Assembly: GCF_001278755.1 (NCBI RefSeq)
Contig: NZ_CP012601.1
Coordinates: 2,108,001 to 2,172,000 of the forward strand
DNA from: Bacillus sp. FJAT-22090
GTDB taxonomy: Bacteria > Bacillota > Bacilli > Bacillales_A > Planococcaceae
DNA length: 64,000 nucleotides
Direction: 5' to 3'
Below are positions 35,461-40,425 of the stretch, piece by piece. The translations under genes and the position numbers were made by a program. The stretch's first letter is position 1, and every line of letters starts with the position of its first letter. The notes under the pieces are model-generated. The model ran no database searches. It was not told the DNA's origin and was given only the letters and a program-made list of their open reading frames with translations.

Positions 35461-35476
35461 AATTAGGGGGATGGAA

Positions 35477-36328
35477 ATGAGATTATTTGCTGATAGTGCA
35501 AGTGACTTGCCAAAATCTTTTTATGAGCTACATAATGTTGTATTAGCACCGCTTAGAGTGCATATTGATGATCAAGAATATGAAGATGTGATTGGTATTG
35601 ATTCGAATGAGGTGTATGCAGCAATTCGCGCTGGGAAACAGCCAAAAACCTCACAAGCCTCACCTGAACTTTTTCTAAGACTATTTGAAGAACTTGCAAA
35701 ATCGGGTGAAGAAGGATTATACATTGCGTTCTCTTCAGAGTTATCTGGAACATATAGTACAGCAGTGATGATGCGTGAGCAGTTGTTAGAAACATATCCG
35801 GAGTTAAAATTAACTATAATTGACTCAAAATGTGCATCTCTCGGTTATGGACTGCTAGTAAAAGAAGCGGTGCGATTGAGAGATGAGGGCTTAGACCTAT
35901 CATTGGTAGAAGAAAAAATTAGGTTTACAGCTAAACATATGGAGCATCTCTTTACAGTAGAAGACTTAGATTATATGGCTCGAGGCGGAAGAGTTTCCAA
36001 AGCAAGTGCTTTTATTGGTGGACTTCTTAATATTAAACCTCTTCTTCATGTGGAGGATGGTAAACTTGTACCAATTGAAAAAATTCGCGGACGTAAAAAA
36101 GTTATTAAGCGAATGATCGAAGTAATGGGTGAACGTGGTGAGACATTAGCTGCACAAACTATTGCAATTAGTCACTCAGATGACGAAGCAACAGCACTTG
36201 AACTAAAACAGTTAATAGAAGAACAGTTCCATCCAAAAAGTATTGAAATTCATCGCATTGGTTCTACTATTGGAGCTCATGTTGGTCCCGGTACATTGGC
36301 CTTATTCTTTTTAAACAAACTTTCATAA
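35477..36328 (+). CDS. DegV-family fatty-acid-binding protein
   Basis: DegV proteins bind a fatty acid between two domains and some serve as FakB subunits of fatty acid kinase. The 283-residue sequence has MRLFADSASDLP at the start, SQASPELF, the FSSELSGTYSTA lipid-carboxylate motif and the GRVSKA segment. Which kinase it would serve is not visible here. The ATG at 35477 is preferred because it is six bases after AGGGGG. A terminator follows. The pairing with a HAD gene matches the yit region of B. subtilis (yitS/yitU). Confidence 0.92.
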   Translation: MRLFADSASDLPKSFYELHNVVLAPLRVHIDDQEYEDVIGIDSNEVYAAIRAGKQPKTSQASPELFLRLFEELAKSGEEGLYIAFSSELSGTYSTAVMMREQLLETYPELKLTIIDSKCASLGYGLLVKEAVRLRDEGLDLSLVEEKIRFTAKHMEHLFTVEDLDYMARGGRVSKASAFIGGLLNIKPLLHVEDGKLVPIEKIRGRKKVIKRMIEVMGERGETLAAQTIAISHSDDEATALELKQLIEEQFHPKSIEIHRIGSTIGAHVGPGTLALFFLNKLS

Positions 36329-36376: not shown

Positions 36377-36461
36377 TTCTTTCGAATAGTTTTGCTGATT
36401 CTTCACATAATAAATAAACGTGAAGAAATTCATGAATCTTTTTTCAATAAGGAGAGGAAAA

Positions 36462-36974
36462 ATGGGTATTTTAAGTGGTAATCCTAAAGATGAACCATTA
36501 CATTACGGTGAGGTATTCGGAATTTGGACAAATCTTGCCACCAACAACGGGTTGATAGCAGCCTACCAAACATTTTATAATCATACCGGTGATGATGACC
36601 TAAAAAAGTTAGTAGAAGAAGCTATTCAGGGTATGGAAGAGGAAAACAAGCAATTAGATAGAATACTAAAAGTAAATGCAATTGGTCTTCCCCCTGCTCC
36701 CCCTGCTCGCCCAGTTGCACGATTGGAAGACATTCCTGTAGGAGCTAGATTCAATGATCCGGAAATAAGTGCTGCATTAGCTAAGGATGTTGCTGCTGGA
36801 TTAGTTGCTTGTAGTCAGGCGATGGGAATGTCAATTAGAGAAGATATAGGAATGATGTATGGACAATTCCATGCAAATAAAGCTCAATTTGGAGCTAAAG
36901 TACTTAGACTAAACAAAAGTAAAGGTTGGTTAGTTCCACCTCCATTACATGTAAACTTCCCAGAAAACAATTAA
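36462..36974 (+). CDS. DUF3231 family protein
   Basis: A 170-residue helical, ferritin-like protein of the DUF3231 family, function unknown. A proline cluster (LPPAPPARPVARLED, residues about 76-90) joins the two halves. Members are common in endospore-formers, often in several copies. The ATG at 36462 follows AAGGAGAGG; the earlier in-frame start is not supported. A bidirectional terminator follows. Confidence 0.8.
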   Translation: MGILSGNPKDEPLHYGEVFGIWTNLATNNGLIAAYQTFYNHTGDDDLKKLVEEAIQGMEEENKQLDRILKVNAIGLPPAPPARPVARLEDIPVGARFNDPEISAALAKDVAAGLVACSQAMGMSIREDIGMMYGQFHANKAQFGAKVLRLNKSKGWLVPPPLHVNFPENN

Positions 36975-36985
36975 AGTAGTGAAAT

Positions 36986-37031
36986 ATAAAAGAAGTAGAC
37001 ATCATTAAATCTAGTCTACTTCTTTTTTTTT
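36986..37031. terminator. Bidirectional terminator
   Basis: AGAAGTAGAC (36991-37000) with GTCTACTTCT (37014-37023) and T runs on both strands. It separates the convergent DUF3231 and amylase-like genes. Confidence 0.88.
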
Positions 37032-38466
37032 ATTTGCTATCCAATTTACGTTGTTTTCCTTTTTTCCATACAATAACTAAAAACGCGATAAATAATAAAT
37101 AGGCAATTGCCATAGCTATTATATAAGAAGTGTTTAAACCTTTACGGTCTGTTACTTGGTATAATTCCACAATTTCACGATCCAGCACTAATCGATAATC
37201 CCCATTCTTAGCAGGACGAACTAAATCTTTCTCGAAGATACCTCGTAGCTCTACATTTTCTCCAACGACATCACTTGATAAATCAATTCGTTGAGTACTA
37301 CTTGTATTGTTAACAACTACTATAAATGTTTCTTCATCTGAATATCGCTTAAATACTAAATAACCATCCTCATTTTTTAGTAGTTCTGTTTTTCCTGTCC
37401 GAAGTGTTTCTGACTTGTTCCGAATAGAGTTTATATCTTTGAAATACTCCATTATATCTTCATCCACGCGGAAATTCATAATTTGATGACTTTCTTGTTC
37501 AGTTTGACCGTTCATAGCGATTTCAGTACCATAGCTCATATATGGAACTCCAGGCATTGTAAGAATTGCCCCAATTGCTGTTTTAATACGAGTTGGCGGA
37601 AACATATTTTCAAGGGCACTATAATAAGTGAACCGTTCAGTGTTTAAGTGATCAATCATTAACAAATCGTTATACTCCGTAGAAGCAATTCCTTCTGACG
37701 GCATATCCGTATTTTTAAAAGCGTCTCTAAAGTTTATAAGCAAATCTTCCGAGTACTTCGTATCAAAATTTGCATCTGATTCTTCCAATGAAATAGCATA
37801 GATCGAACGATCAACTTCCTTTATTGCTGAAATCATATCGTTTATAAAAGAAGTCGGAGCACCATCTAATTGAGAAAACTTCACCCCATCAATATTATAT
37901 TGTTGCGTAAAGTCTACAATCGTATCAATTAATGCCTTCTGAACTTCTGTATTGTTCAAGTCTACTTGCATAACGCCATCTTCTGCTTTTAGAATCCAAT
38001 CCTTTTTAGCAGGGTCTGCATTCCAAATATGATTCTCACTGAAATTGTTTAAAGGAAATTCAATCATAATTTTAATTTCTTTTTTATGTGCTGACTTTAT
38101 TAATTGTTGAAATTCCTCTTGGGTACCAAATCTTTGCTCAAGCTCATTGAAATCTAGTACACGCTTACCATCATATCTTTCCGTCGCAAAAACTGGACCA
38201 ATTGAAATAATGGTAAAACCCATATCTTTAATATGGTCCATTTTTTCCATTACACCTAGAAAGTCTCCACCTGCAAAAGCATTTGAATCTTTTGGATTCA
38301 CATTTAAATCATTTGTTGAAGTTTTATTAAAATAGCGATCCACATAAAGATCATAAATACTTTCATTATGTATAGAATTTGTTTCTTCAGCATGTATATT
38401 TTGAGATGTTGTTACCATTAAACCAAACATTATTATTCCGGTAACAAGCAACTTTTTAACATTCAA
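37030..38466 (-). CDS. Membrane-anchored alpha-amylase (GH13) homologue with degenerate active site
   Basis: A 478-residue protein with a signal peptide (to about residue 26, NIHA-EE), a GH13-type barrel and C-terminal beta domain, and a membrane helix near residues 445-467 followed by basic KKGKQRK. The TTG start at 38466 is seven bases after AGGAGG. The scaffold is well kept (VDRYFN, GGDFLGVMEKMDHIKDMGFT, PGVPYMSYGTEIAMNG, NFRVDED). The catalytic motifs are lost: region I reads IEFPLNNF, region II IDGVKFSQ in place of GxRxD, region IV IDHLNTERF in place of DNHD. Glu is seen only in ISLEES. It is probably not a hydrolase but a binding or scaffold protein. Confidence 0.85.
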   Translation of the reverse strand: MNVKKLLVTGIIMFGLMVTTSQNIHAEETNSIHNESIYDLYVDRYFNKTSTNDLNVNPKDSNAFAGGDFLGVMEKMDHIKDMGFTIISIGPVFATERYDGKRVLDFNELEQRFGTQEEFQQLIKSAHKKEIKIMIEFPLNNFSENHIWNADPAKKDWILKAEDGVMQVDLNNTEVQKALIDTIVDFTQQYNIDGVKFSQLDGAPTSFINDMISAIKEVDRSIYAISLEESDANFDTKYSEDLLINFRDAFKNTDMPSEGIASTEYNDLLMIDHLNTERFTYYSALENMFPPTRIKTAIGAILTMPGVPYMSYGTEIAMNGQTEQESHQIMNFRVDEDIMEYFKDINSIRNKSETLRTGKTELLKNEDGYLVFKRYSDEETFIVVVNNTSSTQRIDLSSDVVGENVELRGIFEKDLVRPAKNGDYRLVLDREIVELYQVTDRKGLNTSYIIAMAIAYLLFIAFLVIVWKKGKQRKLDSK

Positions 38467-38883
38467 GTAAAGTCCTCCTCTGTTTAGAAAAGCAGTAGAC
38501 ACCTTAAGCAGCAACTAGCATTCAAGATTTATTATTGCAATTTCTCACCAATGCTGTATTTAGCTCATTTGTATCTGAAGCTTGATGATTAAAATATATC
38601 AACGTTATTTTATCAAAGCTAAGTTTTAATCGCTATTGTTTATACGTATAAGTCCAAAATTTAAACAATAATTCGTCCAAACTGTGTCTTAAAATAGCAA
38701 TAATTACTCTACTCTATCAAATTATGCTGTGGCATTTAAGGAAGAAATGATTCAGTAACCTAAATTCTGTTACGCTTATTATTCCTCCGCTTTTCACAAA
38801 TGTACAAGGGACGTGACTACGTCACGTCCCTCTCATTAAGTAATCTAGATAATTACCACTAATAGCCACTACCAATATGTCAT
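38467..38883. other. Gap upstream of the amylase-like gene
   Basis: About 415 bases without a gene. A perfect 12-bp palindrome TTATACGTATAA lies near 38639-38650. A stem-loop AGGGACGTGAC/GTCACGTCCCT (38807-38831) follows the small membrane-protein gene but has only a weak T tract, and may be its terminator. The amylase-like gene's promoter is not clear. Confidence 0.5.
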
Positions 38884-39111: not shown

Positions 39112-39474
39112 TTATGCTAGAAAGTTTATGCCCATTGGTAATTTAAATCCTAGGAAAAGCGCGATGAAGAAAAATACAAAGACCAAGACAAGAAACGTTG
39201 TGTAAGGTTTTTCTTTTTTCTTTTTCGCTAATGTCATTTCCATCATTCCAATGACAAGTAACCCTGCTATAAATTTTAGTCCATACAGCATTCCTTGACC
39301 ATAGTCCATACCTTTCATAAATAGCGCAATACCAGTTAATAAAATTAATAAATAATCTAAACGCAAAATCATTTGAACCACTTTTGGATTAGCTACTGCT
39401 AATGCAACGAAGAACAAGATTAGTGCTAGTACCCATGTTGTAATGTGTAAGTGTGTTGATGCTAAGAAATCCAT
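39112..39474 (-). CDS. yisL: YisL-family (UPF0344) membrane protein
   Basis: A 120-residue membrane protein with four hydrophobic helices (about 13-28, 40-53, 63-82, 92-112). The HLHITTW motif at the start and MILRLDYLLILLTG match UPF0344/YisL. Function unknown. As in B. subtilis, it is next to yisK, on the same strand with 54 bases between. Confidence 0.88.
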   Translation of the reverse strand: MDFLASTHLHITTWVLALILFFVALAVANPKVVQMILRLDYLLILLTGIALFMKGMDYGQGMLYGLKFIAGLLVIGMMEMTLAKKKKEKPYTTFLVLVFVFFFIALFLGFKLPMGINFLA

Positions 39475-39528: not shown

Positions 39529-40425
39529 TTACTCGAATTTGTTTACTAGAGTTCCAATTCCTTCGATAGAAATTTTCACAATATCGTCTGATTTTAAAAA
39601 TTTAGGAGGATTATAACCATTGCCAACCCCTGAAGGAGTTCCTGTTAAAATAATATCCCCTGGCTCTAGGGTAACTGTTTTAGAGATGTCAGAAATAATT
39701 TGTTCCACTGAATATACCATATCCGAGGTTTTTCCATTTTGACGAATTTCATCATTTACTTTCGTTACAACCGTTAGCTCTTGCGGATTTGGAATTTCAT
39801 CTTTTGTTACAACATATGGTCCAATCGGGCATGAGCCTTCCAAACTTTTCCCCAAGAAATATTGTTGATGATTTTTTTGAATATCTCGTGCTGTAAGATC
39901 GTTGGCAATTGTATAACCAAATATATAATCAAATGCAAGCTTAGTCGGAATATCTTTTCCTTTTTTCCCAATGACAATAGCTAGCTCACCTTCGTAATCA
40001 TAAGAGGAAGTTTTATCAGCATGTACAGAAAGAGTTTGTTCATCAGCAGCAATTGCCGTTGGCGCTTTAGTGAAAACAACAAACGTATTTGCTTCTCCAC
40101 CCATTTCTTTTGCATGATCCGCATAGTTTTTACCAACTGCCATAATATTTTTTGGTGTCCGTGGAATAGGAGATAACCACTCGATTTCTGTAAATTGGCG
40201 TTTAAAGCCGTCTGGATTTTCACTTTGCATAGCTGCTTCTACTAGCTTTCTAATTTGTTCCATAAAATCTATCCCAAGACTAACACCTTCGACAATTGTC
40301 TTAGGGAAACTTGGTAACACTTGAAGGGTCTCTTGAATACTTAGTACATCCCAAACTGCTTCTTCTTTTTTTACTTTTGGTCCGAAGTAAATTTTATCAT
40401 TTAATCGGTATGATAATAGTTTCAT
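39529..40425 (-). CDS. yisK: Fumarylacetoacetate hydrolase-family protein YisK
   Basis: A 298-residue FAH-fold enzyme. The metal-binding Glu/Glu/Asp pattern is visible (YDYEGELAIVIGKKG), with NDLTARDIQ and the C-terminal LTGTPSGVGNGYNPPKFL. B. subtilis YisK is reported to decarboxylate oxaloacetate and to affect cell shape. Family membership is certain; whether it has the same activity is inferred. It sits upstream of yisL. Confidence 0.9.
   Translation of the reverse strand: MKLLSYRLNDKIYFGPKVKKEEAVWDVLSIQETLQVLPSFPKTIVEGVSLGIDFMEQIRKLVEAAMQSENPDGFKRQFTEIEWLSPIPRTPKNIMAVGKNYADHAKEMGGEANTFVVFTKAPTAIAADEQTLSVHADKTSSYDYEGELAIVIGKKGKDIPTKLAFDYIFGYTIANDLTARDIQKNHQQYFLGKSLEGSCPIGPYVVTKDEIPNPQELTVVTKVNDEIRQNGKTSDMVYSVEQIISDISKTVTLEPGDIILTGTPSGVGNGYNPPKFLKSDDIVKISIEGIGTLVNKFE

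Follow-up and report, generated by a model that had tools for sequence, protein, structure and literature searches.

A membrane-anchored alpha-amylase-like protein with a replaced catalytic triad at the yisL locus of Bacillus sp. FJAT-22090 and its family

Results

The locus and the encoded protein

The window, meaning the whole analysed stretch of 64,000 nucleotides from Bacillus sp. FJAT-22090, carries on its minus strand a gene for an alpha-amylase-like protein of 478 residues. It is preceded by yisL- and yisK/fahA-like genes, and on its other side lies a gene which we take, by recognition, to be degV-like. The features are listed below.

35471..36328, plus strand: degV-like gene, often seen on the side away from yisL
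37030..38466, minus strand: reading frame of the membrane-anchored pseudo-amylase, from a TTG start to a stop at 37030-37032 (478 aa)
37033..37065, minus strand: basic tail of few residues, KKGKQRKLDSK, on the cytoplasmic side should the helix cross the membrane
37066..37128, minus strand: C-terminal transmembrane helix, about residues 447-467, from hydropathy
37159..37395, minus strand: domain C (Alpha-amylase_C_2), residues 358-436, from Pfam
37522..37551, minus strand: region VII, GVPYMSYGTE, retained, from alignment
37642..37659, minus strand: region IV, MIDHLN, His replaced by Leu274 and Asp by Asn275, from alignment
37777..37791, minus strand: region III, SLEES, acid/base Glu replaced by Leu227, from alignment
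37861..37887, minus strand: region II, GVKFSQLDG, nucleophile Asp replaced by Ser198, from alignment
38044..38061, minus strand: region I, EFPLNN, His lost, from alignment
38263..38340, minus strand: retained Ca2-type calcium site within residues 43-68 (N47, N52, D53, G66, D68), by comparison with ASKA residues
38389..38466, minus strand: probable signal peptide MNVKKLLVTGIIMFGLMVTTSQNIHA, residues 1-26, read from the sequence without a predictor
38474..38479, minus strand: ribosome binding site AGGAGG, read in the sequence, with a comparable element in homologues
38607..38615, minus strand: extended -10-like element TGATAAAAT, TGnTAAAAT, conserved
38672..38686, minus strand: upstream element CACAGTTTGGACGAA, conserved, possible activator site
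39112..39474, minus strand: yisL-like gene (DUF1516), conserved upstream neighbour
39529..40425, minus strand: yisK/fahA-like gene (FAA_hydrolase), conserved neighbour

A DUF3231 gene (window 36420-36974) sits between the pseudo-amylase and degV; among loci L001-L007 it was seen at this spot only in L005 and L007.

The TTG start codon at 38466 lies 7 bases past the AGGAGG, and starts at TTG or GTG, as chosen by our own script, were found in 46 of 62 homologues. Pfam recognises both Alpha-amylase (PF00128; 4.3e-25, 89.3 bits against a cut-off of 22) and Alpha-amylase_C_2 (PF22026; 4.3e-22, 78.8 bits against a cut-off of 27). The best match in the PDB is 5a2b (E 9.2e-74), near full-length, and the closest solved proteins are ADTA, ASKA and GTA, all assigned to GH13_45 in the available part of PMC11448133. 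AlphaFold2 models of the pseudo-amylase were poor (mean pLDDT 59.6 and 57.5, obtained with 17 and 15 sequences).

The initial annotation had described a signal peptide and a C-terminal membrane helix. A hydropathy scan (19 residues, threshold 1.6) returned a single passing stretch, near the C-terminus with its peak at residue 449, which upholds the helix; the N-terminus stayed below this threshold, and the signal peptide therefore stands as a reading of the sequence. Orthologues likewise possess a C-terminal hydrophobic stretch and a basic tail, judged by eye outside the window protein. The C-terminus of the window protein comprises a membrane helix with aromatic residues followed by the tail; its comparison with the GH13_45 C-terminal region, some 30 residues long and bearing five aromatics, was made at the level of this layout.

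Replacement of the catalytic motifs

The motifs were compared with those of the active GH13_45 enzyme ADTA. In this alignment every catalytic motif save region VII is altered, and the Asp-Glu-Asp triad of GH13 is fully replaced, by Ser198, Leu227 and Asn275. An amylase-like reading frame with altered catalytic motifs is what the initial annotation had reported, and its readings of region II (no nucleophile Asp; GYRLD in ADTA, GVKFS in the window protein, with Ser198 at the position) and of region IV (HLN in place of NHD; FLDNHD against MIDHLN) were confirmed. Region I was said to lack NH, of which only the His is lost (DFVVNH against EFPLNN), the Asn being retained. The change in region III, where GEVWH is replaced by SLEES and the acid/base Glu by Leu227, had been overlooked. 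Region VI reads GFTIISIGP against GFTAIWLTP in ADTA, and the LPDLA of region V is lost, the window protein having VMQVD there. The adjacent Trp pair between regions V and II, a GH13_45 feature according to the available part of PMC11448133, is also lost (VDFTQ).

Catalytic, sugar-contact and calcium positions in the family

The 162 aligned rows were reduced by 34 to a set of 128 distinct orthologues from the host's own family. Taken out were a second row for the window protein and two truncated duplicates, eight second copies, two GH13 proteins of other kinds, four rows belonging to other families, and the 17 rows of intact type, among them ADTA and L149. The alterations noticed in the window protein extend across this set. 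The nucleophile Asp and the acid/base Glu were each found in 0/128, with Asp at the latter position in 33, and the third catalytic Asp was found in 17/128. The His of region I was present in 3/128 and that of region IV in 0/128. As none of the 128 has two or more triad residues together, the loss is not due to chance. Considered as triplets, the former catalytic positions drift between species. Arg278 is invariant in intact and broken kinds alike.

Other acidic residues lie nearby, and these bear on the possibility that the protein remains active on another substrate, through a rebuilt active site such as one formed by Glu229 and Asp272. Glu occupies position 229 in 88/128 orthologues, Asp272 is found in 128/128, and Asp or Glu at 199, adjoining the nucleophile position, in 32/128. 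In addition, BmaN1 was reported active with a shifted triad (PMC5347038, available part), and the seven broken copies from other families that keep the acid/base Glu (see below) would fit a rebuilt or residual site. However, an acid at 198/199 together with Glu at 227 occurred in 0/128 orthologues, residues of the -1 and +1 subsites are lost, and the old catalytic positions drift, unlike those of a conserved new site. Asp272 is no sign of novelty, since it is invariant in the 17 intact-type rows too. We therefore regard continued catalysis as quite improbable.

The ASKA residues touching maltose and calcium, named in the available part of PMC4791539, were transferred to the ADTA row by a constant offset of 11. 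Retention among the 128 orthologues was 1 for Tyr100, 2 for His217 and 0 for each of Trp101, Tyr143, Lys216, Trp244, His309 and Arg362 (His in 124 at this last position), although Tyr143, Lys216 and Trp244 are variable among intact proteins as well. Arg211 is the sole surviving sugar contact (Arg in 107, Lys in 21). The adjacent Trp pair and the LPD of the LPDlx motif in region V were found in 0/128. The Ca2 site is kept: N49, G63 and D65 are present in 128/128, N44 is Asn in 118 or Asp in 10, and D50 is Asp in 123 or Asn in 5. Of the Ca1 site, the bridge between domains A and B, most is lost (N139 in 45/128, D182 in 12/128). Since the sugar contacts were lost along with the triad, the alignment indicates that the cleft itself, beyond its chemistry, is given up.

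This bears on the glycan-binding part of the initial proposal, which had been that of a pseudoenzyme binding glycans or serving as a wall or protein scaffold. Because the residues touching sugar are gone as well, glycan binding through the old cleft appears unlikely. The pseudoenzyme part is strongly supported by the sequence. Sugar might still be bound at another site of the protein, and a scaffold role is conceivable. A lectin-like surface protein could instead hold alpha-glucan or a wall polymer by domain C or by a reshaped cleft, and the descent of the fold from starch-binding enzymes, the retained domain C and the C-terminal membrane anchor would all suit such a protein. With the sugar contacts of the cleft gone and the Trp pair missing throughout, we consider this unlikely too.

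Conservation and selection

A homologue (E<=1e-30) was found in 195 of 200 genomes and in 19/19 sampled genera of the host's family. The five genomes without one are four of the eight sampled from genus g9 and one genome that is 90% complete; yisK is retained in all five. The gene is thus dispensable in the four g9 genomes. Pairwise dN/dS, calculated with our own script, had a median of 0.082 (range 0.043-0.168) in 144 of 152 close pairs, the other eight falling outside the dS limits and the pairs not being independent of each other; for seven intact pairs, all of one family, it was 0.045. The median points to purifying selection on the pseudo-amylase gene. The possibility that the window holds a single decayed gene, raised with the initial annotation, is ruled out by this value together with the wide presence and the pattern across the 128 orthologues, none of which has more than one catalytic residue. 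A relic on its way out throughout the family, retained only for shortness of time, would account for the g9 absences and the drift of the catalytic positions, but is very hard to reconcile with the low dN/dS, the 195 genomes and the calcium and scaffold residues invariant in 128/128.

Second matches of the maltodextrin-operon type were found in only 7/120 family genomes; the copies in three of these seven (G000, G023, G030) were read and are intact. The window genome has an intact paralogue, L214, in a maltodextrin-type operon with a solute-binding protein, two permeases and a LacI protein (Pfam). That the pseudo-amylase should generally serve as partner subunit of an intact paralogue was considered and rejected, since so few family genomes have such a second match. 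The match of this type in genome G004 (G004:C18:226789-228297) has one internal TAA, which may reflect a disrupted copy or an error in the sequence.

Chromosomal place and upstream elements

The gene order at the family locus is addB-addA-yeiB-yisK-yisL-AMY. yisL lies upstream in 53 of 63 family loci with long flanks, and yisK, yeiB and addA precede it among the family loci listed. Nine of the ten loci without yisL are second copies elsewhere (L098, L119, L163-L169), all broken; the tenth, L093, has none within its 4.1 kb. The second copies L163-L169 and L119 belong to genus g7 and L098 to genus g10; in L163-L167 the nucleophile is replaced by Lys.

The distance between yisL and the start codon ranges from 87 to 2114 bases, the value for L110 being an artefact of an over-long ORF. 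In view of this variability the gene probably has a transcript of its own. The extended -10-like element TGATAAAAT occurs in 46/57 of the family's upstream regions (mean after shuffling 0.56), an excess inflated by relatedness; such a conserved promoter-like element suggests production independent of yisKL. A looser form of the CACAGTTTGGACGAA element was found in 28/57 regions (shuffled mean 0.74). It resembles a direct repeat, in certain genera of the type TGTCAC-N5-TGTCG, precedes the -10 element by about 60-75 bases, and is a possible candidate for the binding site of an activator. A regulon sharing this element was sought in the host's own genome and rejected: with at most 2 mismatches only the pseudo-amylase promoter was matched, and with at most 3 mismatches there were 9 matches against 13 for the reversed control, which is not beyond chance.

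Link to the maltodextrin operon and probable repeated loss of catalysis across Bacilli

Loci from other families of Bacilli were added from 20 of 24 new non-family matches and 40 of 45 further genomes, a partial sample, and 143 Bacilli loci were classified by context. A locus was scored as yisL context when a yisL match fell at any point of its stretch, usually 7-8 kb to either side, and as operon context when at least two of three maltodextrin-transport genes did. Operon context was found for 39 loci (36 intact, 3 broken) and yisL context without the operon for 86 (1 intact, 85 broken); one locus had both and is intact, and 17 had neither (1 intact, 16 broken). The 86 yisL loci comprise 58 from the host's own family and 28 from others, so that many are not independent, and in 13 yisL rows, gapped in a triad column, the designation as broken rests on the alignment. 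The acid/base Glu is retained in seven of the broken yisL copies of other families. The three broken copies within maltodextrin operons, L274 (family f83) and L276 and L283 (family f75), run contrary to a simple rule. The triplets of L276, L283 and L274 are LET, IDR and DDD, and the f75 pair retains the Trp pair.

At 14 of 40 loci with the maltodextrin operon degV is also present in the stretch, and in L294 the operon adjoins yisL. Because of these two arrangements, the operon would appear to have once lain between yisL and degV. L277, an intact yisL copy without transport genes, is sister to the broken L270 and L271. Just before its gene lies a frame of 60 codons (L277:8538-8717, minus strand) whose final 19 residues match the last 19 of MalG (79% identity, E 4e-7), likely the leftover malG end of a lost operon to judge from this match.

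A quick tree built from 78 selected rows requires at least 5 changes between intact and broken. Apart from a deep broken group, broken copies are nested within the intact group at f61, f41, f64 and L207. Several deep forks are weakly supported, and no exact number of losses is claimed; because this tree is midpoint-rooted, the direction of change, from intact to broken, is inferred. An earlier quick tree of 85 rows had placed the 17 intact-type rows on one side of a branch. One of them, L149, carries His at the nucleophile position. L207 (genome G278) is the same protein; the Glu and the third Asp are retained, the nucleophile Asp has become His, and the Trp of region VI has become Cys. In the stretch around it lie degV and fewer than two maltodextrin-transport genes. 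It is perhaps a recent loss of catalysis.

Discussion

The best reading of these results is an envelope pseudoenzyme that arose more than once from an operon amylase. We consider it probable that a GH13_45 cell-bound amylase of the maltodextrin operon gave rise to the window protein, now a membrane-tethered ectodomain without catalytic activity, and that it works by contact. The protein would be exported, its C-terminal helix would keep the ectodomain at the external membrane surface, and the retained calcium would lend it rigidity. There it would act on another membrane or wall component by contact, and not by cutting or gripping alpha-glucans; contact rather than catalysis is the most likely mechanism, and this amylase look-alike probably does a different job. 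By analogy with 4F2hc and rBAT the ectodomain may hold a protein partner; an intact paralogue is unlikely to be that partner in general, given how few family genomes possess one.

With ASKA, ADTA, GTA and BaqA of GH13_45 the window protein has in common the fold homology, domain C, the Ca2 site and the C-terminal region; a hydrophobic C-terminal stretch with a basic tail is seen, by eye, in intact copies too. Lost in the window protein are the triad, the -1 and +1 contacts, much of Ca1, the LPDlx motif and the Trp pair, and it is encoded at yisL whereas the amylases lie in a maltodextrin operon. That GH13_45 includes aberrant triads is already in print. The available part of Sarian 2017 (PMC5347038) describes them, reports starch hydrolysis by BmaN1, and mentions a few proteins, Nos 28-34, in which the entire triad is irregularly substituted; for BmaN1 a C-terminal helix is predicted (PMC11448133, available part). 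As far as these texts go, the BmaN1 group and Nos 28-34 are, like the window protein, GH13_45-like proteins of Bacilli with changed catalytic positions. However, BmaN1, reported active, retains Glu231, an Asp adjoining the nucleophile position and the Trp pair. The pair is said there to mark all aberrant-triad GH13_45-like proteins, and it is missing in the window protein. Nor does the BmaN1 pattern (Lys-Asp at the nucleophile, Glu, and His as stabiliser) recur in the window protein, which has Ser198-Gln199, Leu227 and Asn275. The reported activity of BmaN1 nevertheless counts against our preferred explanation, since lost residues are not always lost activity. The literature searched, with most subscription journals outside the search, yielded no report of the family-wide fixation at yisL, of the loss of contacts with retention of a calcium site, or of the recurrent link to the maltodextrin operon.

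An amylase-family ectodomain in an ancillary role, on a single transmembrane domain, is described for 4F2hc and rBAT in the available part of PMC8537225. The window protein resembles these SLC3 proteins in layout only. They are vertebrate heavy subunits whose transporter light chain is known. SLC3 heavy subunits have an N-terminal membrane helix and belong to a different branch of GH13.

Tentatively, the operon amylase may already have had a second, non-catalytic job in the envelope, which was kept alone where the transport genes left the yisL-degV interval; the active site would then have decayed independently in several families after the loss of those genes. The malG remnant at L277 supports descent from such an operon. 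With similar reserve, this second job could make the protein a bacterial counterpart of the SLC3 heavy chains, the amylase fold serving as a membrane-anchored ancillary protein.

The window protein passes the Pfam cut-off for alpha-amylase, and annotation could credit a large bacterial family with starch degradation on the strength of such genes. One enzyme family has seemingly been retired repeatedly at one place, with living intermediates in L294 and L277, and by virtue of these it can be asked which non-catalytic function the amylase had before its catalysis was lost.
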